Part shown: one piece after another, positions 1-61,227 of the stretch | Numbering within the stretch: position 1 is the stretch's first letter | Layout: each line of letters opens with the position of its first letter | From: Macrolepiota albuminosa | Taxonomy: Eukaryota > Basidiomycota > Agaricomycetes > Agaricales > Agaricaceae | Direction: 5' to 3' | Length of the DNA: 64,000 bases | NCBI GenBank assembly: GCA_027475525.1 | Contig: JAMWFC010000117.1 | Coordinates: 682,001-746,000, forward strand | The notes under the pieces: model-generated | Databases searched by the model: none | Told to the model about the DNA's origin: nothing | The model's input: only the letters and a program-made list of their open reading frames with translations | Program-made: the position numbers and the translations under genes

Positions 1-607
1 TTTTCCAACCTTATGCCATCGTCGTTCTCCCTACTGACCACTATTGCTGGTCCTTGCACCTGTCCTTGTGTCGTCAATGACGACGGTCCCAGCTCAGTAG
101 CCACATCGGCCACATATCCCAAAAGCCGTTCAGTAGGTGCAGTCCAGAAGAGGGTACTATGCGCAAACACGCTGCCTTGTACCATTTCCAAGTACTGGGT
201 AATATCCGGTTGACCCTCAGAATGAGCTGACGAGCTCTCACAAACACGCTGCCTTGTACCATTTCCAAGTACTGGGTAATATCCGGTTGACCCTCAGAAT
301 GAGCTGACGAGCTCTCAGGCAATACCGGATACATCAATGAAGGCATTTGGCTTGCTGGCAGCGACACTCCTGAGACCGCGGATCTCTCTCCTGGTTTACC
401 ACCAGGTCGTACAATGGACATCATCCATGATACGGATAGCCCACCAGGCATTCCAAAGCTCGTGCTGACATCGTGAGGAATCTTTTTGTCCCGCTTTGGT
501 GGAGGTTGGTATGCTGACACAGATTGCATCTTCACAGCTTGAAGCACAGGTAAGTCACCTGTGTCTGCAGCTGGGAACAGAGGATCCAGATCAAGAGAGC
601 CAGTCAT
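1..607 (-). CDS. Unrecognised protein, N-terminal part, runs off window edge
   Basis: The ATG is at 605-607 on the minus strand (protein begins MTGSLDLDPLFPA). I do not recognise the family. The visible protein is polar and Ser/Pro-rich, with no membrane segment. A 77-bp exact tandem duplication (164-317) shifts the frame. With one copy removed, the frame stays open to the window edge, and the protein continues through a segment containing FWTAPTERLLGYVADVATEL. The open frame ending at 74 is therefore a product of the duplication. No neighbour gives a functional hint. It could be the 5' exon of a host gene or part of a transposon ORF. Confidence 0.4.
164..317. repeat. 77-bp exact tandem duplication (copies 164-240, 241-317)
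   Basis: Two identical abutting copies, period 77. They break the frame of the minus-strand ORF at 1-607. Confidence 0.95.
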
Positions 608-880
608 GGAAGCACGTTTTCAACGTGATGCCAACAGAGAATCGAGAGGTTTTGATGATAGTTGCCTAGTCGGTAACAAGCCTAGAGTCGAAAGCCGATA
701 GCAGAAGATTTAAAAAAATGTAACCGGAGTTACGGGTTAGAACTATCTTGTGTGTATCACACAAGTGCTAAATCAGACCGCAGTATCAGATTGACTAGTA
801 CTTAGAGTGAAAACAAGATGTTATCTTACGTAATACTCTATTAAACGATTATAGCGTCATTGACGCTTGGAACATGAATG
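608..880. other. No gene seen
   Basis: AT-rich sequence upstream of the minus-strand ORF. I see no coding potential or repeat structure. It could hold that gene's promoter, but no motif decides this. Confidence 0.5.
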
Positions 881-889
881 ACTCCGTTA

Positions 890-3527: not shown

Positions 3528-3681
3528 AGCACCCTTTCTTGTCAATTACTCATATGCCATCAATTGACTTGATTTGTTTCACTGTATACTGGTCCCCTAT
3601 CTTAAGCACCCTTTCTTGTCAATTACTCATATGCCATCAATTGACTTGATTTGTTTCACTGTATACTGGTCCCCTATCTTA
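3528..3681. repeat. 77-bp exact tandem duplication (3528-3604, 3605-3681)
   Basis: Identical abutting copies with period 77, inside non-coding relic sequence. Confidence 0.95.
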
Positions 3682-4886: not shown

Positions 4887-6936
4887 GCAATCTTCAACTA
4901 CTCATTCTGAACCCAGGACTCCTGAAGGTCAAAGACAGCAGGCTAGGATTCAAAGCAGGCTTCAACAGTTGCAAATGACTGATCCTGATGATCGTCGTGC
5001 ACATAGAAGTAGAAGATCTACTTCAGTGGTTATACCACTTGATTTTGGAACTGAGGGTATGGGATCTGGGAGTATACAAACTGGGGGAATACAAACTGGG
5101 GGAATACAAACTGAGGGAATGCAAACTGGAGGAATACAAAATGGAGGTATACAAACTGGGGGAATACAAACTGGGGGAATACAAACTGGGGGTATACAAA
5201 CTGGGGGAATGCAAACTGGGGGTAGAGGGTCTGGAGATATGCCTATTGCTCAGGATCCATTTGCTATTGTCATTCCTCAAACTCATTTGCCTGAAGGATG
5301 GGATGCACCTTTACAGAATCCCATACCTAGAATGGTGCCACCTCTACCTGTTTCTACATCCAGAAGAAACAATAGGCCTAGAATGGTACCACTTCTACCT
5401 GCTCTACCTCTTCCTATACATAGAAGAGACAACCTGCCTACTATTGCTCCACTTTCTGTGGACATTCCTGAAACTGTTCTGCCTGAAGGATGGGATACTC
5501 CTTTACAGAATCCTATGCCTATAGTGCCACCCCTACCTGCTCTGGCATTTAGAAGAGTCAGAAATGTATCTGTACAGAATTCTATGCCACCTCTACCTCC
5601 TGCCAGACTAGCAGATTTACAAGAGCAGCAAAGGCTGAGACATATGGCTATGATTCAAGAACAAGACAGACAACAGGAATTGGCACAAGCAATAGTAGAG
5701 GAGCAACAAAGGGTCAGACATGAGGAGCAAGAGAGGGAACAAAGACAACATGAAGCATTGGCTACTTTGCACCAAGAAAGGCTGAGGGAGGAGGAAGGAT
5801 TGAGGCAACAGGAACAACAGGAACTGAGACTAGAGGTAAGGCAAAGCCAACTTTAAAAGCCTATCTTAATTGACAAAATTTGACAGTTTGTTGATCTCAA
5901 TCCTGAACATAGGCCTTTGAATCAGGCTAGGGCTGAAAGGATCTTACAAAACTGGCAACAGCAACATTTAGCTGATCTTGAAGAGGATTTCAATGATTTG
6001 GATCCTCATAGATTACAAAATATCCATGCAGCTTTTGATGAAATGCTTCAAAATCCTTTGGAGTATTTGGAGCATCCCATAGACAATGAGATTGATCCAA
6101 ATCTACTGGATGATCCTAGGAATAATCCTGCTGAGAATATAGAGGAGGACTTGGAGTATGTGGATCCACCTGGAGATAATAGACAGCAATATCTACCAGC
6201 ACCTCCTGACTTGGAGTATGTGGATCCACCTAGGGATGTCATGCAGCAAAATGTACCAGCACCTCCTGTCTTACAGAGGATACAACAACCTGATGATGTT
6301 CAGCCTAGAAATGCTCTTCCAACAGGAAGACAGCATTATCTGGATGGATCCCCTTCACATTATCTTGGTTCTATGGATGTTGCATGTCCACACTGTCATG
6401 CTCTACATTTTGATGCTGAAAAGCTCTCCAAGTCTACTAGACGTAATCCAAAGTTTGGCATGTGCTGTTTACAAGGGCAGATTGATTTGCCTAGACTTGA
6501 AGATGCTCCACCAGAACTGCTTGGCTTACTCCAAGGTCACCATCCTCTTTCTGATGCTTTTAAAGCATCTATTTGCCAATACAATGCAGCCTTTGCATTT
6601 ACATCTCTGGGAGTCAAAATTGACCAGGCAATTACCAATGCTCCTGGACCATACAGCTTTAGGATTAATGGAGAGCTCCATCATCTGACAGGTGCTTTGC
6701 TTCCAACTGAAGGTGATCATCCTGTGTATGCACAACTCTACTTCTACGATCACAATCAACAATTGGCTTTTCGTCAGAGAAGCAATCCTAGATTGGATCC
6801 TCAGATAATGGCCTCTTTGCAGGATATGCTTCATAGAGTCAATCCCTTTATTGGCTTATACAAGCTTGCAAAGCAGATTATGACAGAAGTTTCTGAAGGC
6901 CAACTACAAAGGCTTTCTGTTCAACTGAGAGCTGAC

Positions 6937-7090
6937 TTTGGAGACCATCGACGCTATAACAACCCTAATGAACAGGAAGGAGTTGCTGCAATTATACCAG
7001 GAGATGGTTCTGATTTGGAGACCATCGACGCTATAACAACCCTAATGAACAGGAAGGAGTTGCTGCAATTATACCAGGAGATGGTTCTGA
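6937..7090. repeat. 77-bp exact tandem duplication (6937-7013, 7014-7090)
   Basis: Identical copies. They shift the RepHel frame by +2, and the frame downstream (7140 on) agrees exactly once 77 bp are discounted. Confidence 0.95.
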
Positions 7091-8031
7091 AGAATGATCA
7101 GATCACCGTGACATAGTCCTGCATCTGCATGGAGGTCAATTGAAGCGAATCAGCCATTTACACCCCTATTACACTCCTCTGCATTACACTATCATATTTC
7201 CAACTGGAGAACCTGGATTTCACACCGATATTCAATCTCAATTTGGACCAGCAGGAGAACAAAGAGCCAAAAAAGTTAGCCAAACTGCATATTATGCATA
7301 TAGGCTGCAGCAAAGAGCTTTGGAAGCTAATGCTGCATTGCTTTGGAGTGGCAGACTATTTCAGCAATATGTTGTAGATGCATGGGCATCAACTGAGCAG
7401 AACAAGCTCAATTGGGTCCAGCACAATCAACAGAAGATTAGGGCTGAAGTCTATCAAGGAATAGTCGATGCAGCTGCTGGAGATGAAGACTTATGCAGAC
7501 AAGGCCAATGGGTGGTTCTTCCTTCTTCTCATGTTGGAAGTGAACGACACATGCAGCAACTATTCCAGGACTCTATGGCTATTTGCAGACATTTCCATAA
7601 ACCAGATCTCTTCATCACCATGACTGCCAATCCAAAGTGGCCTGAAATAGAAGAGGCTCTGCTAAAAGAACCTATGGTTAATGGAAAGAGGCAAACAGCT
7701 TCTGACCATCCAGATATTGTTGCCAGAGTATTTGAACTCAAGAAGAATGCTCTTTTGAAGGACATAAAAGATGGTCTATTTGGAAAATGTGTGGCATCTG
7801 TCCATACCATTGAATTTCAAAAGAGGGGACTTCCACATATACATATCTTGATCTTTTTCCATCATCATGACAAGATCAAAGATGCAGCTCATGTGGACAC
7901 TATTGTTTCTGCTCAAATTCCTGATCCAGTGACTCAGCCTCAATTGTATCAGGTATTGGCTTTGCTTGAATTATCAATGCAGTAACTGATCTTTGTTATT
8001 AGGTTGTTACTACCAATATGGTTCATGGTCC

Positions 8032-8185
8032 ATGTGGAGCAGATTTTCCCAATGCCAAGTGCATGGTAGATGGCAAATGTTCCAAGAGATATCCCAAAGA
8101 ATTTCAAGATGTGGAGCAGATTTTCCCAATGCCAAGTGCATGGTAGATGGCAAATGTTCCAAGAGATATCCCAAAGAATTTCAAG
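8032..8185. repeat. 77-bp exact tandem duplication (8032-8108, 8109-8185)
   Basis: Identical copies just after RepHel intron 3. They create a premature TAG, and the frame is restored if one copy is removed. Confidence 0.95.
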
Positions 8186-9621
8186 AAGCTACACAGTATG
8201 GTAATGATGGCTATCCCCAATATGCCAGACCTAACAATGGCCACTTTTTTGAAAAGCATGGTCGTCGTTATGACAATCGTAATGTTGTCCCATACAATCC
8301 ATATCTCTCAGCCAAATTCCAATGTCATATCAATGTGGAAGTCTGTGCTTCAGTGGATGCAATCAAATACATTCACAAGTACATCTACAAGGGCCATGAT
8401 AGGACAACTTTGGAGATTGCTAGGGAGGAGAGGGATGAAATCAAGGAACACTTGGATGCCAGATACATTTCTGCTCCTGAGGCTTGCTGGCACATCTTTG
8501 AATTCAACATGCATGCTGAATATCCTTCAGTGTACAGATTGCCTGTGCACTTGGAAAACCAGCATGAAGTCTATTTCTCAGATGATGAACTGATACAGGT
8601 GGTGGCTGCTAGACCTAATGCAGACAAGACTGCACTCACAGCTTGGTTTGAAGCCAATACCAGGTTTCCCAATAATAACACCACTTATCAGAACTTTCCA
8701 ACCAAGTTTGTTTATGAAGCATCTAAACGGAGTTGGAAGGAGAGGCAGAGAGGGACAGCAATTGGAAGGATGTATTTTGCTTCACCAAGACAGGGAGAAA
8801 GGTTCTATCTCAGGATGCTCTTGACTGTTGTAACCAATGCAACTTCATGGGCTGATCTCAGAACAGTCAATGGCCATACCTATCCAACTTATCAGGAAGC
8901 TTGCAAGGCTCTAGGTCTTTTGGAGGATGATGCAGAATGGAGGCAGTGTCTCACTGAAGCTGCTCCAATCCAACTAGGATCAGCTCTCAGGCAGCTGTTT
9001 TGCACTATTCTATTCCACTGTGCTCCTGCCACTCCTGAGGCTCTATGGGACGAATTCAAACATTCTATCTGTGATGATCTTCAACACAAATTGGTACATA
9101 CTAGGCAATACAGGGACCAAGTCTTTACCAATGAGGATGTCTATGACTATGGCCTTTATCTCATCAATGACACTTTGATGAATTTTGGGAAAACTCTGAA
9201 AGACTTTCCCAACATGCCAGAGGCTCAACAGAATTGGAATATAGTTCCAGGTAATTGGCATTTGCATAAGAGATTGACTTGAATACTGATCAATCTTCTA
9301 GGCAATAGACTTTTGGAAGATGAAACTAATTATGATGTTGAGGAGCTCAAGCAAAGAGTGGAGAGTAACAAGGCCAAGTTCAATGTGGAACAACTGGAGA
9401 CTTTCAATGCTGTCATAAACTCAGTGAACAACAATTTGGGCAGGATGCTATTCATTCACAGTGCTGGAGGATGTGGCAAAACCTTTGTCTGCAATACTCT
9501 GGCTGCTGCAGTTCGTTCCAATGGAGATGTGGCATTATGTGTAGCATCATCTGGCATTGCTGCCTTATTGTTGGAAGGGGGTAGGACAGCTCATTCAAGA
9601 TTCAAAATTCCCATTCCTGCT

Positions 9622-10019: not shown

Positions 10020-13000
10020 TCAGCGGCGGACGAGACCCAATTCAGCAAGAAAACGGTGGTGAAGAACGCGAGGCAAGGACTTCGTCATGATATCAGCGAC
10101 CATGTCATCGGTAGAAGCCCAGATGGGTTCAAAAGAACCAGATTGTATGTGCTCACAGATAAAATGAAAACGTATGTCGATATGCTTTGATCAGGATGAC
10201 GTGACTTCAGAAGTGGATATGTTAATCGCACTCTTGTTGTCGCAGAGAATTGGGAATGGAGTCGGGGCAGGTAGGCGAAGTGAACGTAAAAGTTGACGGA
10301 TCCACAAGCCCTCTCGTAATGCGTGAGTCAATGACATATATTCAGCCTCCGTTGAAGACAAAGCGACTGTACGCTGCCTGACAGCCGACCAAGAGATAAG
10401 ACTAGAGAACATGAAAAAAGTATATCCCGAAACACTGCGGCAAGACTTAGGGTCAGATGCCCAGTCGGCATCCACGAACGCACCCCCAGTTGGGATGTGA
10501 AGGCGAAAAGGTAAGACTTTGTTGGAATGGGAGAAGTTATATTCGAGAGCAAGGTCAATAGATCCAGCAAGATATCGAAGGACCCCTTTTGCAGCTAGAA
10601 GGTGCGCCCTCAAAGGATTCGCGTTATACTGGCCAAGGTTCATGGCGGTAAATGCGAGGTCAGGGCGAGTACAAAGACTCAGATATAGTATCGAACCAAC
10701 TAAACGTTGATAGTGGACCGTGATATCGGCATCCGCAACGTCAGGGATAGAGTTGGGAGGAGGATCGGGCAAGGAATGTAAAGGGGAGTGTAGAGGTACT
10801 TGCGTGGCCTTAGCGTCCAGCAGGTTGTAGGAATTGAGAAGATCAATAATGAAGCCCTTCTGCGAGAGCCACAACTTCTTCGTGGATCGATCTCTCTCGA
10901 CACGAATACCCAGGTACAAGGTGGTGGGACCAGCATCCACGACTTCAAATTGTTCGTTGAGCTTGCGAATAAGCCATTCGTATAGGGGAATGGAATTAGT
11001 CGCATTCAGACCATCATCAACATGGAGACAGATGATGATGAAAAGATCCGAGCCGTCAGCTGGCATGGAAATCGTGGGATTGGGAGGTGTTGAGAAATAA
11101 CCGACAAAGACAGCATGATCAACTTCGCATTGAGATAGTCCTAAGTCAGACAAGATGCGACGAATCAATTCATACCATTCATGAGAAGATTGCTTCAGTC
11201 CATACAGCGCACGAAGGAGACGGTATGTTGTTGACTTGTCATGCTCCGGAAAACCGGGAATTTGCCTGCAATAAACCTCGTGTGAAAGGGGTGCGTTAAG
11301 GAAGGCAGTCTTTACGTCGAATGTAAAGAGATGCAGGTCATGGTGAGCTGCGTAAGCAAATAAAAGGCGGATGCTCGTCATCCTGGCAACCGGGGCGTAG
11401 GTAGTTCCATAGTCTTCCGGACGTTGACTAAAGCCCTGGGCAACCAGACGTGCCTTTTCACGACCACGTAAAATTGAACCCTCAGGGTCAAGTTTGTAGG
11501 CGAAGACCCAACGGACTCCAATCGGGCGACGACCTGGTGGAAGAGGTGCAACCTCAAAAACACCGTTGCTGCGCAGACTATCCATCTCACGCTGCATTGC
11601 AGCCAGCCAAACATCCGCGTCAGGTCGACGAATGGCCTCATTGTAGTTTTCCGGTGGTTTTGATAAATCAAAAGATTTGGGAGAGCGCAAAGGGAGAGGA
11701 TCCGGACCATGAGTCAGGTAGGCTTTGAAGTCCAATATATTGGCGAATTTGATTCGAGCTGTGTCATCAAAATCGGTAGAATAGGGTTCAGAATCCAAGA
11801 GACTCGCAAAATCCAATATAGCGAGAGAACTTTGATCAGGAAGAATATGGCATGCATCTCGGTTTGCCCGTCGACGAACTAAACGAGCATTGCGTGCAGC
11901 GAGTTCGTCAGCATGTGCTTTGCCTTTCACTGTTTGGATGATGTTTCGACGGGGACGATTAGGCGGATCGAGGATTGGGGTCGGAGAAGGAGATAGAGGG
12001 GAAGCATGTGGGGAGGAAGAGTAAGGAAGTGGAGAATCAGGGGGAATCAAAGATGGACGAGGTAGTGGGAGAGATGGTGGAGAAGAAGATATAGTGGGAG
12101 GAGTAGAATGCGGTCTCGGAGAAGGGGATCGATGAACTTGGTGAGGGTGAAGACGACCAGGCGTAGTTTCATCAAATATGACATCGCGAGAGAAAAAATA
12201 TTTTCCATTGAGGTCACGAACCCTGTAGCCTAGCCTATGTTCATTGTAACCGACAAAAATTGCTTCAAATCGGCGAGGAGAACCTTTAGCTCTTGTCTCA
12301 TTCGGATGTAATACAAAGCAACGGCAACCCCAAACCCGAAGATGTGACAGATCTGGTTTTCTGCCTTCCATGATTGAGTACGGAGTATCGAGAGCGGGAA
12401 GCGTCGAAGTAGGCAAACGATTTTGGAGATATTGAGCTGTGAGTATGGCATCACCAAGAAAGGATAGCGGAAGACCAGCCCACGCCATCAGCGATTGGGC
12501 AGTATCCTCAATGGTACGAATATAACGTTCTGCCTTCCCATTTTGCTGATGTGCATAAGGAGCCGTAGTTTGGTGAATTATACCCCTAGATTCGATGTAG
12601 GCTTGAAAAGGACCTTCAATGAACTCTTTCGCATTATCCGAGCGAATAGCTTTAATCAAATTTCCGGATTTAAGTTGCCAGCTCGCTTCAACACGTTTGA
12701 AATGGTCTAGCGCCTGCGTCCGTGAAGAGAGAAGAGCTGTACTGCCATAATTCGAATAATCGTCGAGTAGTGAATGAAAGGAATTCGTGCGTCCGTTCGA
12801 AAATAATGTTGGGAAAGGGCCACAGGAGTCCATGTGTATGAGCTCGCATACTTGAGTTGCTCGGTGATGTAAGGTGTCGTACGGACGAGCCGGACGTTTG
12901 CCAAGGATGCATGGAATACATCTATCATCCGTGAAAGAACCAGTATACTCAACCCCAGTGGCATAGTTCTTTGTAAGAATTTCCCGCGTAGCGTCCTGTC

Positions 13001-15410: not shown

Positions 15411-15566
15411 GATTGAAGTAATGATAAAATCAATGACAGTCAATGACGTAATGAATGACGATGTGAGAAGGACAACGAAATGGAGGCGGCCACCCGTCGT
15501 ACGAGGCAATACAAGAGAAACAGTAAGTCGTGTCTTCGTATCAGAAGTATCTGGTCAACAAGGAAA

Positions 15567-17390: not shown

Positions 17391-17640
17391 GAACCCCTAA
17401 CCGAACAAAGTGAGGTTGGGATGAAGGCTGAGTTACTTATATACATACTTGGAGCCCTAACCGAACAAAGTGAGGTTGGGGTGGAGGCTAAGTTACTTAT
17501 ACATACTTGGAGCCCTAACACATACTTGGAGCCCTAACCGAACAAAGTGAGGTTGGGGTGGAGGCTAAGTTACTTATACATACTTGGAGCCCTAACCAAA
17601 CAAAGTGAGGTTAGGGTGGAGGCTTAGTTGGGGGGGGTTT
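17391..17640 (+). repeat. Helitron 3' subterminal tandem repeats, ~58-59 bp
   Basis: About four units of CCTAACCGAACAAAGTGAGG plus a variable GGTTGGGGTGGAGGC / AGTTACTTATACATACTTGG segment. A 77-bp exact tandem duplication (17443-17519, 17520-17596) is superimposed on the array and is out of register with its natural unit. Confidence 0.8.
17443..17596. repeat. 77-bp exact tandem duplication (17443-17519, 17520-17596)
   Basis: Identical copies. The junction (CCCTAAC|ACATAC) breaks the register of the surrounding ~58-bp satellite. Confidence 0.9.
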
Positions 17641-38009: not shown

Positions 38010-38480
38010 ATTTCTTCTGACATTATTTCATTTTACTGTTTCTATTCTTTCAACACTATCTGTTAGTACTACTCTCAGCCCTTGAGGTGCTCTGGTTCTT
38101 TAGCTACCATTCAGACAAGTGTGGGCTCCTCAGCACCACTTCCAGACCGCTTATATAAGCCAGAGTTTGCCAAAGTTTGCCCCTTATTTGTGCAATTGTT
38201 TGTGTAGGCAATTTTTGAGTTTTTAAGGTTTTGTTGTAAGAGTTTGCCAAAGTTTGCCCCTTATTTGTGCAATTGTTTGTGTAGGCAATTTTTGAGTTTT
38301 TAAGGTTTTGTTGTACTGTACAGTTGTTTCCCATGCTTCAGAGGCCCCAGAAGCATTCAACCTGGCATAAGAAATTCCTAGACTTGTTCTCTTTGGATTT
38401 CCCTCTGCCAGGTGAGTAGCTATCATGATATTGTCAGTATATATTCTAATACACTTTGGATCTCCCTCTGCCAGCTGTGT
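38010..38480. other. No gene seen; contains a 77-bp duplication
   Basis: Low-complexity TTTTGAG/TTTGCC-rich sequence between the old LTR and the Gypsy-C RT fragment. No recognisable coding. Confidence 0.4.
38162..38315. repeat. 77-bp exact tandem duplication (38162-38238, 38239-38315)
   Basis: Identical abutting copies in non-coding DNA. Confidence 0.95.
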
Positions 38481-38489
38481 GACTGAGCC

Positions 38490-38957
38490 ACAGCCTCTAG
38501 AGGTTGCCCTTACAGCTTGAGTATCTCATAATGCCTTTCAGAATGACTAACTCCCCTGCCACGTTCCAATACTTCATGAACAACATCTTCCACAACATGA
38601 GCAATGTCTTTGTCATCATTTACCTGGACGACATCCTCATTTACTCCAACTCAAAGAAGGATCACCAGAAGCATGTCCAGCAAGTCCTTGAATGCCTCCA
38701 GGAGCACAACCTCCATGCCAAGCCCAAGAAGTGCTCGTTCCACATCAAAGAGATCAAATACCTTCGCATTATAGTGTCTCTGAATAGTGTTTGCATGGAC
38801 CCCCATAAGATCAAGGCCATTGTCAACTGGCCGCAGCCCTGGAACGTCAAGGAAGTACAGTCTTTTCTGGGTTTGACCCCCATAAGATCAAGGCCATTGT
38901 CAACTGGCCGCAGCCCTGGAACGTCAAGGAAGTACAGTCTTTTCTGGGTTTTGCTAA
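38490..38957 (+). pseudogene. Gypsy-C reverse transcriptase fragment, left part
   Basis: Ty3/gypsy RT from the palm onward: EYLIMPFRMTNSPATFQYFM, then VIIYLDDILIYSNS (YLDD catalytic box), KCSFHIKEIKYL and [16 protein letters not shown]. The left edge is abrupt. Gypsy-B is inserted right after FANF, and the reading resumes at 50538. One 77-bp duplication (38798-38951) lies inside. Confidence 0.88.
38798..38951. repeat. 77-bp exact tandem duplication (38798-38874, 38875-38951)
   Basis: Identical copies in the Gypsy-C RT. Removing one restores [10 protein letters not shown] in frame. Confidence 0.95.
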
Positions 38958-38962: not shown

Positions 38963-39273
38963 TGTAGCGTAGTCCACTATGTGGCGTTGGCCACATAGCT
39001 TTACTTACTGTAGAGTAGTTTATATTATATTATATTTATTATAATATAATATTAGTTTACATTATTATAAATAGTTTTACCAGCTGCTTACAAAGCAGCT
39101 TATTTTTGTGTTTTATTATAATATAATATTAGTTTACATTATTATAAATAGTTTTACCAGCTGCTTACAAAGCAGCTTATTTTTGTGTTTATACTACATA
39201 GTCAATAGACCGGACTGGTCTGATTCTGTGCAGTGTGAACATTAAGCTCACAACTTCCTGTAACTTCGTTACA
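38963..39273 (+). repeat. Gypsy-B 5' LTR (234 bp plus 77-bp duplication)
   Basis: Identical to the right LTR except about three transitions and an extra 77 bp. The right LTR, which lacks it, shows that the duplication is not part of the LTR. Confidence 0.93.
39035..39188. repeat. 77-bp exact tandem duplication (39035-39111, 39112-39188)
   Basis: Present in the left Gypsy-B LTR but absent from the right LTR. Confidence 0.95.
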
Positions 39274-39845: not shown

Positions 39846-42800
39846 ATGGCGGAAGCCCGCATAGAGGAGGTACCGGAGGAGGCTGCAAGGCCTGAAGTAT
39901 CCCACGCAGAAAACTGATTCCCACGCACACCAGCAGTGGAGGAAGCTCCGGAGGTTGTAGAGCTTCCAGAGGAGGTGATGGAGTCATCAAGTGACGACGA
40001 CGCCGGAGCAGAGGAACAGCGGCTGAAAACCGCGTACACCGTGCGCTTGCAGATGTTCTGGGACTTGCACCCAGAAGTGATGAAATACACCACCCAAGCG
40101 TGACTTGAGTGCTACGCGTCAGTCCATATAGTAGCACTTAGGCAACAAGGGCACGAAGTGCCCAATGTATTCAGTACAAAATATACTGATTTAATAGTGA
40201 GAGTGCTCACGATGGAGCTGCAAATGTATGTGCAGCGGAAGGCCACACGGCAATCGGGGGTCTCGACCCCCTGGAGCCACACGTCCGAGGAATGCTCGGC
40301 ACGACGCAATCAAGACGTCGGAATTGAGCTAGTGGAGGCACTAGCACGGGCGCAAGAAGTGCCCGAAGTAAGACCAGTGAGTACTTTTTATACTCCAGCA
40401 GGACAAGGGTAGCGTGAGGAGCCCCCACACATGCGTAACCATGACCATAGGACAGATATGTCAGGTCCGGATGGGCACGATAGTACCGTGCTCAAGGTGG
40501 AGAGCGAGGCATCTGTGATGCCACATGTGCCCATGGCCGACACGTTGAGCGACAGAGTCATGTATCAACGTATGCGCAATGGCGACCTCAGGACTAAGGG
40601 ACAGTCCCTTATCGACGATCAGGGCATTGTATTCAAGGGCACTAAGCCCATTGACAAGATGCGTCGTCAATTCATCATGCAGGGTCAGGAGAATCAAGCT
40701 TCTCCAGTTCCAGGGCAGCGCAACGATCATGATCGAGGAGACTTTCTCGATCGAGATGGCGCTACGAGACGTGATGTCCCTGGTAATGGCCGGGATGACA
40801 GCCCTAGGTCAATTCCTCGAGACAAGGGCAATTATGCCCACAGTCGAGGAGGCTCGGGACGTCCTCTGCAGGGTGGACGAGGGAAGTCACTTCCCCATGC
40901 CGCTGATTTGGCGACTAGATCCCCGGATCAGCGGGAGGCCATTCGAATGTATCGTGAAGCCATGCACAATCGCCTGCATTGAGTAGTCGATGATGCCCTG
41001 GGTGTAACCTTACAGTTACCTGATGGAGTGAAGCTGCGTAAAGCAGACAGTAGGCACATTCGTGCCTATACGGGCGCGTCCAAGTTCAGCGACCTGGAAG
41101 ATTGGGCGATGGATGTATGCACCCATCTTGCCATGTGCTTATATGGAGGCGACCGTATGGAACGAGAACAAATCTTTGTTCTTCCTGAGTTCTTGGCCGG
41201 AGAGGCCATGGGATGGTTTCGATGGGCAGTACTGCACGTCAACCGTGTCCAATATGACTGGACATTCAAAGGAGTCCTTACAGGACTGTATAATCGATTT
41301 GTACACCCCTCAACGCTCCAGGATGCAAGGCGGGACTTCCAGTCCGCCAAGTACACCGAGAAGTTAGGAGTGCAAGGGTTCTATGATACCCTTAATGACC
41401 ATGCCCAGAACATGGCAGTATACCTGGACGGGTACACAATGCTCAAAACGTTCTTGGATGGCATTCCAGCGGACATGCGCCGCTATTTAATACGTGAGGA
41501 CGGATTGTCCCCAGAAGTCAACGATGTAGAAGAGTTTGTGGCATATGCCATCAGGTATGAGCAGTCTCTGAAGACTGCTAACCACTACGAGCATCGGAGT
41601 GGACACAAAGGAGGACCCAGGCAACTACCGCCTGGTGGGACACCCTCACGGGGTCAGCATGTGGGGACCTTCCTGGCCAAAAAGACCGATTTGGACCATG
41701 ACCGCAACACGCGGTTTGTTGTACGCAGAACCCCTGCGGCGAACCGAGGGCAGAGCCGCCCATGCCCAGATCGGGCGTCGGACGGAGACCGTCCTAAACC
41801 AAGGCCGGACTTCAAACCGGCCAACCCACCAGGTCAGATGGGGACTTGTTTCATGTGTGGCCAACCAGGCCACTACGCTACCAACTGCCCCGCGAAGCCA
41901 GGAGCCCCGAGGAAGGGGTATACACCCCGCGCCCACCTTTGAGCTGCACATACTGCAGCTACGAGTGGGAGTGACGGAGACATATTTGCCAAGTCTGAGG
42001 CAGAGCACCCCACAAACGACCAGGAGCCCCCAGAGGAGGCATCGGGCGCCGAGCCCAAGAGTGTGGTCGTGGAGGGGGAGGAGTACGTCACAGTCGACGT
42101 ATATGATGACGTCTACAACAATGAGTACTACAGTCGCGACAGCGACTCCGAGTGCCTAGCGGCGATGATGGATTGGCCGTCCACAAATGATTCCAAATGG
42201 AATAACGTGGTTCGGATGAAGAAGGTGACTCTTCGTCGTGCAGAGGGCACTTTGCAGCGCCCTACATTGAAACGAGCAGACAAGGAGTGCCTGGTCTCGT
42301 ATGTGGACATAGACGGCCACAAGGCATGGACCCTATGGGACTCTGGGAGTACTACGTCGGGCATAACGCCCCAGTTTGCCCATGTGTACGGAATATCCGT
42401 GCAGGAGTTGGATATGCCATTGGCATTACAGCTGGGCACCGTAGGGAGCCGAGCCATGGTGCAGTATGGGACAAATGTGACTGTCCAAACGCGCCATTGG
42501 CATTACAGCTGGGCACCGTAGGGAGCCGAGCCATGGTGCAGTATGGGACAAATGTGACTGTCCAAACGCCGGGCTCACATAGCCGGGAATACATGGATGT
42601 AGCAAACTTCGATCGCTACGATATGATACTGGGAACACCATTCATGCGGCGTAACAAAGTCATATTAGACTTTGACCATTGTCAGGTGCTAGTGAATGGG
42701 AAAGTGATCCCAGCTGAGCGAGCTACAGCAGACGACACTGATAATCGTCTGCGACGTCATCGCACTATGAAGAAACGCAAGGACTCTCCATGACTGGGCT

Positions 42801-45800
42801 GGCGCAGAGTGCCGGCTGTGGAGGATGTGGAGGAAGAAGTGCAGGCTATGCCTGGACTGAGCGCAGACCACAACGTGGTAATGATGAGTGAGGAGGAGTA
42901 TCAAGCCTCCAAGAGGAGCAACAAGCAAATAATCGCTCCTGATGTTCGAGGCGCAAAGCCTCCAGACAAGCGCCATCGAAAGGCGAGACAACGGGAGGAC
43001 TCAGTGGATGTATGTCCACCTACGTCCTCACAAGTCAAGTTGGAAGACTTGAGAGACAGCATCTGAGAGGTGGAAGCCTCAGGAAAGGGGGACACACGGT
43101 CCCTATGGGAGCGACCAGCCCCCCTGCTGGAGTACGACTGGGCATACGACCCCCGAATGCCGCAAGAGTGGAACGAGCTGGTGGCAGCCACATGTGCGCA
43201 AAATGCGCACCAGAGACGGATGACCGTCAACCCAGCGTATTGCTAGCCAGCCTCGGACGAGGTGTCCGTAGCGTACTCACTTGTATGTGAGGGGAAAAGC
43301 CTTGTGGCCTATAAGGCAGCGGCAGCAGGTGCTCCGCTGAGACTACATATACCCAATGACAGTGTCAATCGGGTGCTCGCAATGCGCGAGCAGTATGCAC
43401 TGCCGCCTCGGCCACCCTCAGAGATGGTGGAAGTACTTCCCCCGGTGAGTATGAAGGGGAAGCAGAAGGCGACAAGCCTTAGTGAGGAAGATATTCCTCG
43501 GTTGCGTCAGCAATAGCAAGAAGAATTTGCCAACATGGTCAACGGGACCAAGGAGGAGCTGCCGCCATGGTGGGAGGTGAACCATGAGATCAATCTCATA
43601 GACAAGAGCAAGCAGTATAAGTACCACTTGCCGCGCTGCCTGCGCGCCCTCCAGGAGCAACTACGCGATAAGACTAATCGCTATTTGAATGCTCAATGGT
43701 GGTCCCCATACACCACCGCTCAAGCTGCACCATTATTGTGCATCCCGAAGAAGGATGGAACCCTTCGAACAGCTCTTGATGCACGTCAGCGCAATGACAA
43801 TACCATAAAGGATGTAACTCCTTTACCAGATCAAGAGGTGATCTGGGAAGACGTGGCTCGGGCGAAGTATCGCTCAAAGATTGACCTTACTGACGCTTAC
43901 AAGCAGGTGCGCATTCGCACCGAGGACGTACCCAAGACCGTATTTGCATCGATCATGGGCACGTTCACGAGCAATATAATGCAGATTGGAGACTGTAATG
44001 CTCCAGCAACTTTCCAGAGGCTAATGACCTCTATCTTCCGAGACGTAATAGGATGTTTTATGCACGTCCACTTAGATGACATATTCATCTACTCGGATTC
44101 TATGGAGGAGCATGAGCAGCACCTCAGAGTCATATTTGAACGACTGCGCAAGTACAAGTTGTACTTGAAGTGGAAGAAATGTGAGCTCTACGCTCAGAGT
44201 ATAGACTGCCTAGGGCATGTCATTGATGAGCGGGGTATCCACCCCGATCAGGACAAGCTCGATCGTACGCTCAGAGTATAGACTGCCTAGGGCATGTCAT
44301 TGATGAGCGGGGTATCCACCCCGATCAGGACAAGCTCGATCGCATTTGGGAGTGGCAAACGCCCCAAAACTACAATGACATCCAACGATTCGTTGGCCTT
44401 GTCAACTACATATCGAGCTTCTTGCCCGATGTCACAGCCTATACTGGGCCACTTATGGCCATGACGCAGAACGGGTCACCGTTCAATTGGAGGCCGTTGC
44501 ACCAGTGGTGCTTCGAGATGGTCAAACGGATCTGTACAAAGACTCCGGTGATTCGACCAATCGACCCTAGACGGGACGAGCCGATATGGCTCATTTGTGA
44601 CGTGTCCAAGACAGGCGTCGGAGCCATGTATGGTCAGGGAAGCAGCTGGCAGACGTGCCGCCCAGCAGGGTTCATGTCGAAGAAGTTCACAATGGCCCAG
44701 CAAAACTATGCGGTGCATGAGCTGGAGACTCTTGCCATACTCGAGGCCCTCCTCAAATGGGAGGATAAGCTGATGGGATATCCCATCCACATCATAACGG
44801 ACCACAAGGCCCTTGAGTTCTTCAAAACTCAGGTGAACTTGTCGCTGCGTCAGCGACGGTGGATAGACTACATGTCGAGATATCAGTTCGACATCACCTA
44901 TGTTAAAGGTGAACTCAACAAAGTGGCAGACTGCTTGTTACGCTACTTTGAGAGTGATGTAGTCGGAGAGGCTCACGAGCCTCATGAGTATGTGCAGGCA
45001 GACTGCCGCATAGACCCAGACGGAGAGGACTTACCTCTCCACCGATACCAGGAGCTCAGGAAGCATGTCCTGGAAGTACGCGCTATGCGTGACGATGAAC
45101 GGAGGCGAAGCACTCACCTCAGAGAGCAGCGTGAAGAGCGGGATGTGGCCGCCCAGTTGCTCAAGGAGCATGAAGCTGTGGACCCAGCGTCTACTAGGGA
45201 GCACGAGCACCACGATATACCCGTTATGCTTGTGGAGATGCTCAAAGGCAAATTGCCTTCATCCCAGCCCCCTAGCCTGGTCAACGACGACTTCCAGAAG
45301 GAAGTGGTGCAGGACTATGGCGATGATTCTCTCTTTGCTGAAATACTCACCAATCCTGACGACCATCCTTGGTTCAGGCATGAGCCTGGTGGACTGATTA
45401 CGACGGAGAACCGTCAAGGGGTGGCAGTGGTGTGCCTCCCCCGTATGCGAACCATTATTACGCGGGTCTTGGACCAGGCCCATGCACTGGTGGGGCACTT
45501 TGGTGCTGCCCGGACGTTGGGCTACATCCGAAGATGGTATTGGTGGCCACGTATGGCCCAGGAAGTGACTAAGTTTTGCGCCTCATGCGCAGCATGTCAG
45601 AGGGCAAAGTTGCCCCCTGGATCCCCTCCCGGAAAACTACACCAGCTGGCCGTGCCGGTGAAACCTTGGGATTCAATTGGAATGGACTTTGTAGATCCCT
45701 TTCCTGAGTCCAGAGGGTTCGATTACCTCTGGGTGGTCATATGCCGCATGACAAGCATGGTGCACCTCATACCGGTGCGAACTACGCTGACGGCTAAGGA

Positions 45801-46875: not shown

Positions 46876-49800
46876 ATGGACAACATGCCTGTGGACCAGA
46901 GTGAGCAGCAGCAGCAGCAGTTTGAGATTGCGCCGTTGGTCTTACCGTCGGCTGAAGGGGGGGGCAGATGGCTCCCCCGCTTGTCCAAAATGTGCCCCAG
47001 TGGGGACAATCGCAACAAGCTGTGGGCTTCCCACAGCAGCAGCAACCACCAGCGGCGGGCTACCTGCCACAGCAGCCGGTGATCAGTGGCTATCCACCAC
47101 TTCAAACCATGCAGGGCAACTTCATGCCCCAGAACGCACCTGTGGGTGGCTATCAGCCCCAACAACTATTACTGGGCGCTTATGCGCCACATCACACCGA
47201 GGGCCAATCCCAACAACAGGCCTACGGGGGGCTAGTCAGCCCCCAAGCAGCGCCAGGATGGGGGCAGTTTGCCCCCGCTATGGCAAGAGAGGCTATGGGC
47301 ACACATCCTTTGCCCCAGTTTACCGCCCCGGCGCACTACCCTGGGATGGGTGGTGTGCCCGTAATGATGCCGTACCCCCTGGCTTGGATGGGGGCTTGGG
47401 GCGCAATGCCCCAGTACAGCGACTCGCATGAGTTGCAAGCCAAGGGAGGCCGGTTGATTTCCCTGTCGACCACAGCACCAATTGACAATCTAGAGGGACG
47501 CAAAGCATCCCTCGTGCAGGCCACCGTGGCCATCGAGAGCACAGAAACTCTCAGTCCAGGACGGAGCATCAGTTCATCGGCTGATGCGCCGACGGAGAGC
47601 TTGGCCAAGCTCAGAGCACAGAAACTCTCAGTCCAGGACGGAGCATCAGTTCATCGGCTGATGCGCCGACGGAGAGCTTGGCCAAGCTCTCCTTGCTACA
47701 GTGGCTGGAAATGCCGCACCAATCCGAGCCCAGCTTGGAAGAAGAGTTGCGTCCTCGACATGACAAAGGAAAAGCATGGGCTGTCGAGCCCAGTCACAAC
47801 CAGGACTTAGTCCTGGCTACTCTTCTCCAACGTCTGGGAGATAACGGGTACGATGTACCCGCAGAGTCATCATTCCTCCGCGATGCGGAGGCAGTCGTCC
47901 TCATCTGCCGGATGATGGATGACATGGATCATATGCGTGCCCAGCGCAAAACTGATCTCCTTGCCCTATTGGCCGCTCGTAAGCGGCAGACTACACCCCT
48001 GAGTCGGGACACCGACTCCAGCAAAAGGGCGCGTTGGCAAGGAGTGGAGGACGCATCCTCCCGCTCAATTAAGTCGAGCGTTGCTGCCCCTGGCCGGGAG
48101 GCCAGTCTAGGATGGGACATCCTTCCCTATGAAGATGTCCCTGCTCCAGCCGCCCCCTGGCTTATCCAGCACCTCGCCAGCAGCGCGTCTGAGGTCGCGT
48201 CTTTGTGACCAGTATCCGTGGTGTCCACCACGTACTCTGGGGAGCAGAGTTCCAGGGGCATGAGCACACGCCCCACTGAGGCCAAGGCCTCACAACCCCG
48301 AAAGGATTGTTGGGGTAAGCAACCGGAAGGGCACGCATACGTCAACGTGCATTTCCCCAAGGATGCCCCGAAAGGGGCCCCAGGGGCTAACATCCCCTTT
48401 TTACCTGCCATACTGGTAGAGGGCCTGCCAGCCTGACTCCCGTGGTGTGTGTAGGCTATGGACCCACGGTCTGAGAAGTCGGAGCCGGAGAGGCTGCCAT
48501 CCCCGCCCTCTGACAACGATTGGTATGAGGAGCCTGAAGAGGCTCGTATGAAATCCCCTGTGCTGCACAAGACGGCGGCACAACATATGACATGCGAACA
48601 GCGCAACAGCAATCGACGGGCCAAGATGGAATGTCGGGCGCAGGATAGCGCCAAGCAAGGAGCTGCCCTCCTCAAGGACCAAACCGGGCGCATCCCTGAT
48701 GCACTCGGTGTTGTGATCTATTGTGATCACACTATTGAGCGCCAGAACTCATTCTTTGGCGCAGGGTTAGCTCCCCAATTCTATTGGTCGCCAATGACCA
48801 ATACCATCTTTGTCGGGCAAGAAGCCCGTTTTTTGGTGCGGGGTTAGCTCCCCAATTCTATTGGTCACCAGTGACCAATACCATCTTCGTCAGGCAAGAA
48901 GCCCGCGCAGCCAGGTCCTTTGAGGACGATAAACAGGGCAACGCCGCGGCGACGCCCCACAACAGTAAGGTGTACCAAGTGGCACCTCGCGGGTTTCCCC
49001 GCAGTCCTCGAGAAGTCCGCAGACTTCATGCACTGGTTAACAACCAGTTTACGCTGATTCATCAGCGTCAGTTGGGCTACCTCTTGCTCAACGAATTCAA
49101 GCGGGTGGCGCTCAACTGCCACCCTACTGCCCGAGACAGAGCTATGTCTCATTTACTCGACGAGGTCGAGTATAGGACCATCGTGGTACCCTTCGCGAGT
49201 CCAGAGGAGCAGGAGAACGTCCCGCGAATGATTGTGCCATTGCGGCTCTATCGCCGCAAAGAGGGAGGGAAAATTGCCTTCGTCGGCCTTACCCCTCCTG
49301 ATCCAAAGCAACCATTTGCTTTGGACTACCTGGGCTCATACGCCCTCCTCTATGGACGTCCTGGGACGTCCAACGTATGGACTGGTCTGGCCATGAACCG
49401 TGCCATGCACATTCATTGGCGCAGCCTCTTTGGGTTTGCGCTTGTATGCACCCTCAGCGCCAGCTGCACCTCCAAGTCCACGGTACACAAGTATCTGGCC
49501 TATGTCTTTGCAAGGCCAGGCCTCTACAAAGAGGCCGTGGCTGAGTACGAGGCAGCCACGGGGCAAGTCTTTGTGCCCCTCCATGCCGACGACCCTAACT
49601 TCGAGGCCCGGGCTGTAGACATCCCGGAAGCGTCAGCTTCTATGTTCACCACTTCGGACGCGTTACGTGTCTTTCTTCATAATCAAATCCCAGTCAGCTG
49701 GGCTGACCATGCGTATACTTATGGGGTCACCTACTTGGCCCATTTATTCTTCAGTGACAGCCAGCTCTACAACGAGGCGGCCGCTATCGACGACAAGAGG

Positions 49801-50532: not shown

Positions 50533-50537
50533 CTTCT

Positions 50538-56415: not shown

Positions 56416-57197
56416 AGACCCACGTCACCTTGTCAGTAGAAGAACTTTGTAGTATTGCTCCCGACGTCCGCAACCAGGTCAAGACGGCAGTCACTCCCCA
56501 ACGACCCTTGGCGACAGCCATTGCCGAAGTTGATGAACTCGACGACGCGCTTCCTGGTTTCTCTGTTACCATTGACTCTCCCGACACCGATGAACCTCTT
56601 GCCGACACCATCGCTAACGCCACCTCTGTGGACCCAGTAGAGACCTACCTTAGGTCTGTGGACCATGGAGAGGACCCCGCAATCCTTACCGTCGCTCAAG
56701 AATCGCACGCTATCCGCTCGGTAGCGCTAACAGTAGACAACAAGCACGAGGTAGAGGCAATCGTGGATAGCGGGTCTCAGATCATTTCTATGGCAGCTGA
56801 AGTCGCTAACGATCTAGGCCTTATTTACGACCCTACCGTTATACTAAACATGCAGAGCGCTAACGGTACGGTGGACAGATCTCTAGGCCTCGCCAAGAAT
56901 GTGCCGTGCACCCTTGGCGACATCACTTTTTATCTTCAGATACACATCTTACGCTCCCCGGCTTACGACTTACTTCTCGGCAGACCCTTCGACGTCTTGG
57001 CGCGATCAGTCGTCAAGACAGTTACCGACGAGGAAACAACCCTCACAATTAGCGACCCTAATTCCGGAATCCGACGAACGGTGCCAACGTTCCCAAGGGG
57101 ACAACGAAAAGGCACCCTCGCTAAGCCGCCAGAGTTTACCGACCAACACGCCAACGAACAACCCTACCGGTGTTTTCACAGACCATCGAGGAGGTGA
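56226..57197 (+). CDS. Gypsy-A DUF4100-like region and aspartic protease
   Basis: Frame -1 relative to gag, overlapping it by about 190 nt. The first part (VTLSVEELCSIAPDVRNQVK) is the segment linking Gag and protease in many agaricomycete Gypsy elements. The protease active site VEAIVDSGSQIISM is at about 56750-56790, with LLLGRPFDVL as the flap-side motif (~56970). It ends 28 nt into the RT frame, which is again -1. This could be programmed -1 frameshifting or two single-base indels. No ATG is well placed to start it. Confidence 0.8.
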   Translation: MSSTTAPEPPLPPLHPYSGIPDRYHAPAQQNFAAPEKRPEGGYRPTTPIFDIEKSNHVFNRIMKTHVTLSVEELCSIAPDVRNQVKTAVTPQRPLATAIAEVDELDDALPGFSVTIDSPDTDEPLADTIANATSVDPVETYLRSVDHGEDPAILTVAQESHAIRSVALTVDNKHEVEAIVDSGSQIISMAAEVANDLGLIYDPTVILNMQSANGTVDRSLGLAKNVPCTLGDITFYLQIHILRSPAYDLLLGRPFDVLARSVVKTVTDEETTLTISDPNSGIRRTVPTFPRGQRKGTLAKPPEFTDQHANEQPYRCFHRPSRR

Positions 57198-60100
57198 TTG
57201 GCGATGATCACGGAGATGTGGCGCTAACGCTGGAATATGACCATTCAACTGGTCTTGTAACCGTTATGTCTACTGCTTTTCTTGACCAAGATGTTTTAAC
57301 TACTTTTCCCGCTACCGACGCAGAGCCTTCCCAGAAAAATCAAAACATTACAGACTCTTCTCTTGCCTACTTGTACCTTACCGCTTCAGAATCTTTTCAG
57401 AATATTGCGTCTACCGACACCTATCTCACTACGCTTCCCGGAGCCTCGTCTCCTGCCGTTCTTGGACTTGCCGCTCCTCAGGCTACAGTTCCCCTTTCCA
57501 CCTCTGTTTATAACCAGGCTAACGCTCCTAAAAGGAAAGGGGTTCAAGTCAAAAAGAAATATAAGCCAGTTGCGCTTAAAACAAAACCCGTCGCTATGCA
57601 CTCTCCTGAGACGTTTAGAATCGAGCGACAGATCATTGGCGATCCGCTTGCCGACATGCCAATCTTATTACCGAATCCGCCACCTTTTCAGCCCACGGGA
57701 CGTTTTACCAAGGAACACCAACAACAATTCGCTAAGGAGCACGACACAGGATTTTTGACCAAAGATGAGTTAAATGTCCTTACCGACCTCGTCGCTAAGC
57801 AGGATAAAGCCTTCGCTTGGGAGGACTCAGAACGCGGTAGTCTACGTACAGATTTCTTTCCGCCTGTCGTCATCCCGACCATTCCTCACGTGCCGTGGAC
57901 TGAGCACAACCGACCGTTACCGCCTGGGATTGAAGCCAAAGTCTGCCAAATCATTAGGACCAAGATTAAGGCTGGAGTCTACGAGCCCTCCAACAGTTCT
58001 TACCGCTCCCGTTGGTTCTGTGTCCTCAAAAAGAACGGCAATCTACGCATAGTCCACAGTCTTGAACCACTGAATAGAGTCACCATACGACACTCTGGCG
58101 TACCGCCTTTCCCTGATCACGTTGCCGAGTCCTTTGCCGGGCGCATTTGTGGCGCCACCCTTGACCTCTATGTTGGCTACGACGAACGCCTGATACACCC
58201 CTCTTCCCGGGATCTCACTACTTTTCAAACTCCGTTTGGCGCCTTGCGCCTAGTTACCTTGCCGATGGGCTGGACAAACTCAGTCCCCATATTCCATGAC
58301 GACATCACTTTCATCCTCCAACCCGAGATACCGCACCATGTCCTTAGCTTCATTGATGACGTTGGCGTCAAAGGCCCCAAAGACTGGCGACTCGTAAACG
58401 GCTTACCGGCGACCCATCCCGAGAACCCCAACATTCGCTTAGCGCTATGGGAGTTTTTCTTGCTGCTCAATCGAGTTCTCCAACGTATGAAGTATAGCGG
58501 TGGTACCTTTAGCGGCCATAAGCTCCTCCTTTGCGCGCCAAGGTTCAAGATACTTGGTCACATCTGCACTCCCGATGGACGCGTTCCTGACGAGTCTCGC
58601 TTAGCACTCTTGGAGCGCTGGGGCCCTTGCCGCGACTTATCTGAAGTACGCGCCTTTCTTGGTACCGTTGGCGTTCTCAGGATATTCGTAAAGAATTTTG
58701 CCCATCGCGCACACGCCCTTAACCGACTCACCCGCGCCAACGAGCCCTTCAAATTTGGGCCAAACCAGGTCACTGCCCAACGCGACTTAGTAAAAGCCTT
58801 ACAAGACGCCAAGCCCCTAGTCCCCATCGATTATACCTCTGCCGACCCTGTTATCTTGGCGGTGGACACCTCGTACATTGCCGTTGGCTACTTCTTGTGC
58901 CAATGCCTTAGCGACAATCGGAAACAGCGACGCTACAACCGCTTTGGGTCTATTACGCTAAACGATCGAGAATCTCGCTACAGTCAGCCTAAGCTAGAGC
59001 TCTATGGGCTTTTCAAAACCTTCCGGTCGCTAAAGATGTATTTGATTGGCGTGCGCAACCTTATTGTTGAAGTCGACGCTAGGTACATCAAAGGCATGCT
59101 GCAGAATCCCGATATCCAGCCATCCGCTAGCATGAACCGGTGGGTAGTCGCCATCCTCATGTTCCACTTTGAGTTGGTACACGTCAAGAGCTCTTTCCAC
59201 GGCCCAGATGGACTTTCTAGGCGACCACGGCAGCCTGGCGACCCGGCAGTGGACCCACAGGCTGATAGCGATTTCGAGGACTGGATCGACCGATTACATG
59301 GTTTCGTGCACCTTATACAACAGCCGATTCCCCTATTACGACGGCAACAGCCTACCAGCATCCTTCTACATCCCATTGTCCCTTACCGCCCCGAGACCTT
59401 TAGCGCACCCCTCACCTTCTATACGGCAAGCATCCTTGGACAAGACTTGCCGCCAGTAAAAGTCGTACAGGAACCCCAGTCGCTAAGAGAAGACAGCAAA
59501 AATCTGACCTACGATGCCGTTCCCCAATCCGCCAAGGCAAAGGCGGAAGACAGTCGCCTGTTAGTAGTCGAGCAATGGATACAAGACCTTAAGCGACCCC
59601 CAGACCTTACCGACGAACAATACGCTACCTTTATCCGATATGCTACCCACTTCTTCTTTACCGACAACCGACTTTGGCGACGAAATCGAGATGGCGCTCA
59701 CAAGCTGATCATCAAGCCAGAAGGTCGCTTACGAGTCTTGCGCGCTATGCATGACAAGCTAGGACATAGAGGTCTGTACGCTACTCAAGCTTCTCTGTTA
59801 GAACGCTTCTGGTGGCCACACGCTAGTGCCGACAGCTAGGACATAGAGGTCTGTACGCTACTCAAGCTTCTCTGTTAGAACGCTTCTGGTGGCCACACGC
59901 TAGTGCCGACATCGCCTGGTACATCAGGACTTGCCACCTCTGCCAAATTCAACAAACCGATTCTGGTGGCCACACGCTAGTGCCGACATCGCCTGGTACA
60001 TCAGGACTTGCCACCTCTGCCAAATTCAACAAACGCACCAAGTGCTCATCCCGCCAACCGTTGCAACGCCAGCTCCCCTCTTCAGCAAAATCTACGTCGA

Positions 60101-61227
60101 CACCATGCATATGCCCAAGTGCTCATCCCGCCAACCGTTGCAACGCCAGCTCCCCTCTTCAGCAAAATCTACGTCGACACCATGCATATGCCTAAATCTG
60201 GTCGCTACAAGTACATCATTCAAGGTCGTTGTTCGCTAATCCACTGGCCTGAATTTCGAATGCTCCAAAGAGAAAATACAGAGGCGGTCGCCAAGTGGCT
60301 ATTTGAGGACGTCATCTGCCGTTGGGGAGCGCTAAGAGAAATCGTCACGGATAACGGTGCGCCCATCATCAAAGCGCTAACATACCTCGCCAAGAAATAC
60401 AACATTCACCACATTCGAGTATCTGGCTACAACAAGCGCGCCAATGGCCTGGTAGAGAGACCACACTTTGACGTTCGGCAAGCGCTCTTCAAGGCGGTCG
60501 ATGGCGACGAGTCTCGTTGAAGTGAAGTGACATATTCAGTATTTTGGTCGGAAAGAGTTACTATTCGTAAGCGCATGGGTTGCTCTCCCTATTACACGGC
60601 TACTGGCACCCATCCGTTACTCCCTGCCGACATTATAGAAGCGACCTATCTGCAGCCAGCACCCAACAGCATCTTAGCGACTACCGACCTTATCGCCAGA
60701 CGAGCTATTGATCTCCAGCGAAGGAGAGAAGATTTAGAGCGACTCCACGAGGTAGTCTTTAGCGCCCGTCGCCAAGCAGCGCTATTGATCTCCAGCGAAG
60801 GAGAGAAGATTTAGAGCGACTCCACGAGGTAGTCTTTAGCGCCCGTCGCCAAGCAGCCCTACGATTTGAAACCGAGCATAGCGCCACTATCAAAGATTAC
60901 AACTTCCCGCGGGGAGCGCTAGTGCTTATGCGCAACTCCAAAATTGAAACCTCATACAACAAGAAAATGCGCCCTCGCTATCTAGGACCTTTGGTAGTTA
61001 TCTCTCGTAACCGTGGAGGCGCTTACGTGCTCTGTGAATTAGATGGTTCAGTACTACATCGACCTGTTGCCGCTTTCCGCCTATTGCCGTATCTCGCCAG
61101 AGAACACATTGACTTGCCGCTTGAAGCGCTAGACATCGACACCGCCAAGCTTAGGGAACTTGAAGAAACAGACTTACTGGACGATGATGACTTACCGACT
61201 CTAGTTGAAGAAGAAGAACCAGATTAG
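57170..61227 (+). CDS. Gypsy-A Pol: RT, RNase H, integrase
   Basis: RT: RWFCVLKKNGNLRIVHSLEP, TLDLYVGYDERLIHPSS, LPMGWTNSVPIFHDD and active site SFIDDVGVKG (FIDD, not YxDD). RNase H: VILAVDTSYIAVGYFL. Integrase: zinc region CHLCQIQQTH, YVDTMHM (D), VTDNGAPI (D) and NGLVERPHFDVRQ (E). The tail begins SVFWSERVTIRKRMGCSPYY and ends with an acidic stretch. 77-bp duplications at 59757, 59884, 60040 and 60704 break the frame. Discounting them, one frame remains except TGA at 60518-60520 (DESR*SEVTY; Trp commonly found). No chromodomain is seen. Confidence 0.9.
59757..59910. repeat. 77-bp exact tandem duplication (59757-59833, 59834-59910)
   Basis: In the Gypsy-A integrase N-terminus. Its second copy overlaps the next duplication. 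Confidence 0.95.
59884..60037. repeat. 77-bp exact tandem duplication (59884-59960, 59961-60037)
   Basis: Overlaps the preceding one by 27 bp, giving a chain of three duplications within 440 bp. Confidence 0.95.
60040..60193. repeat. 77-bp exact tandem duplication (60040-60116, 60117-60193)
   Basis: Third of the chain. Repeats the integrase DTMHMP segment. Confidence 0.95.
60704..60857. repeat. 77-bp exact tandem duplication (60704-60780, 60781-60857)
   Basis: In the Gypsy-A integrase C-terminal region. Removing one copy restores the frame through to 61227. Confidence 0.95.

Follow-up and report, generated by a model that had tools for sequence, protein, structure and literature searches.

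Tandem duplications of exactly 77 base pairs in a Macrolepiota albuminosa genome assembly as a probable trace of untrimmed contig joins

In the genome assembly of the basidiomycete Macrolepiota albuminosa (GCA_027475525.1; 100,137,612 bases in 129 contigs), short pieces of DNA are found doubled in tandem with a unit of exactly 77 base pairs (bp). We analysed these pairs in a 64-kb stretch of contig JAMWFC010000117.1 (C110:682001-746000, hereafter the window) and in further stretches fetched from the same assembly. The pattern is real in the sequence file but most probably absent from the organism itself: the pairs are very probably an assembly artefact, left when de Bruijn contigs (k = 77) were joined without trimming of their overlap. 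What is observed is a spike of the tandem period at 77, halves which are nearly perfect and far closer to each other than the mobile elements that carry them, boundaries without any motif, and an enrichment of the doubled 77-mers at branch points. An initial annotation, made from the sequence of the window, had already proposed that contig ends overlapping by k were concatenated untrimmed, and this proposal is now supported by the period spike, the comparison of sister copies, the boundaries and the branch points.

Results

The period spectrum

For a survey beyond the window we took 20 stretches of 10 kb on six contigs, which were picked by round coordinates and not randomly; eight of them lie on C110, including four no more than 32 kb from the window. 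In the 200 kb sampled, all 37 tandem runs reaching at least 90% of their period have the period 77, they occur in 14 of the 20 stretches, and no such run was seen there at any other period from 20 to 399. When the window is added (264 kb) and the requirement is lowered to 80% identity, 54 pairs are found at period 77, of which 49 are perfect, while all other periods from 40 to 200 together give 16 scattered pairs, none of them perfect and some being a single array counted under several periods.

A genome-wide scan for the spacing of a 7-base word, over spacings 62 to 92, gave 223 matches. Among the 100 of these that were listed, in contig order from C1 to C88, 70 have the spacing 77, 23 have the spacing 70, and seven further spacings have one match each. 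The peak at 70 looks like a single repeat family bearing the word twice, for example at C46:159949-160025. The control with the reversed word returned 150 matches; it is also a word of the same genome and would thus hold 77-base pairs as well. A spread of periods from 70 to 85, which by the initial annotation would refute its proposal, was seen neither in the 264 kb nor among the 100 listed of the 223 word-spacing matches. The duplications therefore have the fixed single length that untrimmed joins with k = 77 require, and the spread of lengths expected of tandem duplications made by repair was not found in the 200 kb sampled.

Tandem pairs in the window

The window was scanned at periods from 10 to 399 for exact runs that reach both 20 bases and 60% of the period, and the imperfect pair at 48752 was found separately. 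It holds 16 tandem pairs, all with a period of exactly 77:

164..317, perfect 77-bp tandem pair
3528..3681, perfect 77-bp tandem pair
6937..7090, perfect 77-bp tandem pair, between the stop-free stretches 5884-7116 and 7098-7985 (Helitron_like_N, PF14214), frame +2
8032..8186, perfect 77-bp tandem pair (run of 78), in a Helitron-like region
17443..17596, perfect 77-bp tandem pair; imperfect repeats of 58 and 60 bp occur in the same stretch
38162..38315, perfect 77-bp tandem pair
38798..38951, perfect 77-bp tandem pair
39035..39190, perfect 77-bp tandem pair (run of 79), in the left long terminal repeat (LTR) as named in the initial annotation
42416..42569, perfect 77-bp tandem pair, in the Gypsy-B region
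44189..44342, perfect 77-bp tandem pair, between 43517-44281 (RVT_1, PF00078) and 44230-45927 (RT_RNaseH, integrase), frame +2
47536..47689, perfect 77-bp tandem pair, between 46956-47810 and 47585-48208, frame +2
48752..48905, imperfect 77-bp tandem pair (70/77); flanking stop-free stretches differ by frame +2
59757..59911, perfect 77-bp tandem pair (run of 78), located where 57125-59839 (RNase H, integrase zinc binding) ends; right side in frame +2
59884..60037, 77-bp tandem pair (75/77), overlapping the end of the pair at 59757
60038..60192, perfect 77-bp tandem pair (run of 78), starting 154 bases past the start of the pair at 59884
60704..60857, perfect 77-bp tandem pair, between 60521-60814 and 60763-61227, frame +2

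The starts agree with those given in the initial annotation, apart from one pair placed there at 60040 which begins at 60038. The period of exactly 77 claimed there likewise stands, and its count of 15 identical copies has to be lowered to 14 pairs perfect across 77 bases, as the pair at 59884 matches at 75/77 (76/77 when the register begins at 59881) and that at 48752 at 70/77, with 7 differences between the halves, every one of which is a transition. The remaining exact runs in the window have a unit of 15 (two, near 5.1 kb) or 33 (one, at 19.4 kb).

Pfam domains in the sequences examined are of retroelement, Helitron and ordinary eukaryotic types. On the minus strand at 10191-15554, two adjoining long frames of 1276 and 510 amino acids contain no 77-base pair; they sit between Helitron_like_N (7098-7985) and a PIF1-like helicase (15824-17062), are retrotransposon-like by eye, and are probably a nested insertion.

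Unit length and boundaries

The 49 perfect pairs of the 264 kb extend past 77 by 0, 1, 2 and 3 bases in 29, 15, 2 and 3 cases, and chance would give 27.6, 13.8, 5.2 and 1.7 (chi-square p 0.58, three classes). Since the extension beyond 77 is as by chance, the unit is exactly 77. No boundary motif is found either, with at most 0.13 bit at any of the 8 bases on either side of either boundary (chance about 0.04), and the guanine-cytosine content of the 77-mers is 0.483 against 0.474 in the background. Chance-level extension together with uninformative boundaries thus gives no hint of microhomology or of a motif that is targeted.

The halves are identical in 49 of the 54 pairs of the 264 kb and in 31 of 40 in the short loci described below, where the other 9 match at 76/77; under untrimmed joins these exceptions would require a later change, such as polishing. 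The intervals between pair starts, counted for runs of at least 70 bases, are 108, 127, 133, 154, 204 and up, so that the minimum is 108 and none of 37 falls below 78. Untrimmed joins should lie at least k+1 bases apart, and the 37 intervals agree with this for k = 77, which is a weak test as short intervals are few.

Comparison with sister copies

We compared five sites of the window with their copies elsewhere by means of 90 short loci (fetched loci are designated L), which were partly chosen for the presence or absence of a pair and therefore give no estimate of frequency. A run of 70 bases or more was found in 11 of 20 loci for site 44189, 5 of 20 for site 42416, 1 of 20 for site 8032, 13 of 20 for site 59757-60115 and 7 of 10 for site 48752. 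Pairs matching at 76/77 or better are present in 40 of the 90 loci, 31 of them perfect and 9 with one difference. At site 8032, all 39 other copies that were scored have no pair there, the match falling into two pieces which overlap by about 77 bases in the target.

The places of the pairs in the fetched copies mostly differ from those of the window. Mapped to window coordinates, they lie at 44114, 44148, 44165, 44184, 44189, 44193 (four copies), 44203 and 44212 for site 44189; at 42359, 42415, 42416, 42425 and 42441 for site 42416; at 8242 for site 8032; from 59728 to 60051 for site 59757-60115; and from 48710 (two) to 48768 for site 48752. The halves agree at 76 or 77 of 77 bases in element copies which differ by 3-11% from the window copy. 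The copies sharing a place with a window pair, with their identity to it, are as follows:

L035, at 44189, 94.8%
L050, at 42416, 95.0%
L114, at 48752, 93.7%
L101, at 59757, 92.6%
L089, at 60038, 96.8%

Copies with the pair at the same place thus differ by about 3-7%, and their halves by 0 or 1 of 77 bases, the window pair 48752 (70/77) being excepted; for instance, the place 42416 is common to the window and L050, which are 95.0% identical, and the halves are perfect in both. If the doubling were older than the divergence, we estimate that about four differences between the halves would be expected at 5%. An inherited family should have the pair at the same place in most copies and halves as diverged as the copies, and neither was found among the copies compared.

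The two ends of the Gypsy-B element give a similar comparison inside the window. In the left LTR region, 39035-39199 and 39112-39276 both correspond to the single right copy 50371-50535, which matches 39112-39276 at 99%. The initial annotation had stated that the left LTR has a pair and the right one does not, and this holds in the regions compared (39 kb against 50.4 kb).

Branch points

For each perfect pair, the same 77-mer was sought elsewhere in the loci compared, and a branch was scored where the adjacent base before or after it differs. Among the 15 testable perfect pairs 7 lie at a branch, against 72 of 916 controls, which were 77-mers taken at the same places with a shift of at most 70 bases (odds ratio 10). 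The controls from one place are mutually dependent; when one control per pair was drawn, the expectation is 2.35 and p about 0.0007. An earlier version of the test, with a less fair control, had given 7 of 12 against 44 of 544. The test was made on assembled loci and not on reads, and most of the genome is outside the set, so that branches can be missed. The result fits with joins at branch points as an enrichment, not as a proof.

Pairs in host-like and single-copy stretches

The initial annotation had noted that no pair falls in the host-gene island at 17.7-38.1 kb and had placed the overlaps in repeats. The former is true in the window but is no rule for the genome, as pairs are found in host-like stretches elsewhere; as to the latter, pairs are mildly commoner in repeats but not confined there. 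The pair L011:9298 lies in a stop-free stretch with an M13 peptidase domain (PF05649) further along, L011:979 in a stop-free stretch with an AMP-binding match (PF00501), and a TRAPPC13 domain is 2.3 kb away from the L010 pairs 4738 and 4967. In a DNA search skipping very common words, a single genomic place was found for the 1001 bases surrounding the pair L011:4095; of three further spots searched, two are repeated, that in L019 at many places and that in L010 at two. Of 52 pairs, 30 are in stretches with a paralogue in the set, for which random placement gives a mean of 23.5 and reaches 30 in 39 of 2000 placements.

The two places of L010 lie on one contig: L010:4300-5700 recurs as L119 (C110:342300-343700), about 38 kb away on C110, as its sole other copy. 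The two agree at 99.0% over the 515 bases up to the first half of the first pair and at 99.7% over the 580 bases behind the second pair, so that the segment may be a second haplotype kept in the assembly or may have been duplicated recently as a segment. L119 is without the first L010 pair, and its own pair starts directly after the 77-mer of the second. Such neighbouring but differing junctions are what bubbles between alleles would be expected to give.

Reading frames

Because 77 = 3 x 25 + 2, each doubling within a coding region moves the frame by +2. With the sequence left unaltered and every pair in place, a long stop-free stretch on the left and a stretch in frame +2 on the right were seen at 6 of the 16 window pairs (6937, 44189, 47536, 48752, 59757 and 60704). 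The shift that the initial annotation ascribed to pairs in coding regions is thereby seen at these six and does not by itself account for the pair at 8032: the left frame there is closed at 7985, ahead of the pair, so that at least one further break, which is not a 77-base pair, must lie near 8032.

Discussion

How untrimmed joins would produce the pairs, and what else might

We propose that at least part of the sequence goes back to de Bruijn contigs assembled from short reads at k = 77, in which neighbouring contigs would share their last and first 77 bases at each branch point. A later step, which may have been scaffolding, hybrid joining or path output, would then have abutted the contigs with the shared 77 bases kept, and each join would leave one 77-mer doubled in tandem. 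The branch points would be where versions of a sequence meet, namely copies of mobile elements and probably also allele-like copies of host sequence. The imperfect pairs might come from later polishing with reads of other copies, or from the joining of contigs of different copies. The short-read graph, the untrimmed join and the polishing are all steps that we infer from the pattern of the pairs.

Some observations speak against untrimmed joins. Five of the 54 pairs are imperfect, one with seven transitions, and so are 9 of the 40 in the short loci. At branch points, 8 of the 15 testable pairs have no branch in the loci compared and 66 of the 81 perfect pairs are untestable, while for the pair at 39035 its three testable controls are branches as well; the L010 pair 4738 ends one base short of the difference between L010 and L119, which also counts against bubbles between alleles there. 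Furthermore, five window pairs have one copy each sharing their place, and the place 44193 is common to four copies (L029, L030, L033 and L038), of which L029 is at 95.4% to L033 and 95.6% to L038 and is identical to L030 over 501 bases.

Shared places are what ancestral tandem duplications inherited within families of transposable elements would also give. However, the same-place copies are about 3-7% apart with halves at 76-77 of 77 (except window 48752 and, nearby, 59884), the places mostly differ between copies, and the period 77 appears in unrelated families too. We therefore rejected inheritance, the halves being too alike for elements so diverged and all 39 other copies scored at 8032 being without the pair, and it is the least probable of the explanations considered here. 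Hardly more credible is a cellular process, such as fixed-stagger nick repair or the activity of mobile elements, which would have to make tandem copies of exactly 77 bases at thousands of sites regardless of the sequence. The pair at the same place in several element copies and the somewhat higher frequency in repeated DNA (30 of 52 against 23.5) would agree with such a process, but the sampled sequence has no length spread, boundary motif or microhomology, the pairs occur in unrelated types of element and in host-like stretches, and nearly perfect halves stand within diverged elements, with +2 frame breaks at six window pairs. Real tandem duplication was accordingly rejected on its fixed length, chance-level extension, unrelated contexts and near-perfect halves.

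Another software step with a built-in constant of 77 bases, such as the anchor of a gap filler or polisher inserted twice, or a fixed read or overlap length, is the strongest of the rivals, and yet unlikely. It would produce the same spike at 77 and the same lack of a motif, and gaps of 100 N in 2 of the 20 sampled stretches indicate a separate scaffolding step. These gaps are of exactly 100 N (L015:2510-2609 and L024:8542-8641), and their ends have no overlap. What such a constant does not predict are boundaries at branch points (7 of 15 against 72 of 916) and the very short intervals of 108, 127, 133 and 154 bases.

Relation to known assembly behaviour

For reads of 150 bases, 77 is a usual largest k in SPAdes. 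The pairs resemble SPAdes contigs or graph edges in that adjacent contigs have an exact end in common, and differ in that the shared end is apparently kept twice inside long contigs, being neither trimmed nor terminal. The Unicycler paper (PMC5481147) describes the overlaps made by SPAdes at contig ends as removed on finishing. There is also a likeness to false duplications, where an assembly contains a sequence more often than the organism does; their sign, according to a review, is k-mers commoner in the assembly than in the reads (PMC10462168). The false duplications described there are homologous haplotypes taken for tandem copies, particularly at contig ends, whereas here the unit is fixed and lies inside contigs. 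No description of tandem duplications of a fixed k length inside contigs was found in the literature, as judged by titles and abstracts.

Consequences for the assembly

If the sampled density holds (37 pairs in 200 kb, or 16 in the 120 kb outside C110, with stretches on six contigs), the 100-Mb assembly would contain about 13,000-18,000 false duplications of 77 bases, or about 1-1.4 Mb. Owing to the +2 shift made by each pair in a coding region, the decay of mobile elements looks greater than it is, and among host genes some may seem broken. Counts of pseudogenes and of intact elements, ages of LTR pairs and tandem repeats taken from this assembly would be biased. The finding is of low interest for biology and useful for warning users of this assembly; plotting tandem periods as a histogram would quickly reveal the same fault in others.

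Some larger repeats were met in the searches. Matches to two unrelated queries recur on C126 (1208039-1299460 and 1489427-1580848) with the same offset of 281,388 bases, suggesting that a large block is duplicated there. On C81, matches of the word-spacing scan and of another search recur between 253764-358212 and 810161-914609 at an offset of 556,397 bases, possibly another such block. A duplicated block may also underlie the two Gypsy-B copies C114:2664467-2664967 (L030) and C114:3015949-3016449 (L029), which are identical over 501 bases, including a pair at 76/77.

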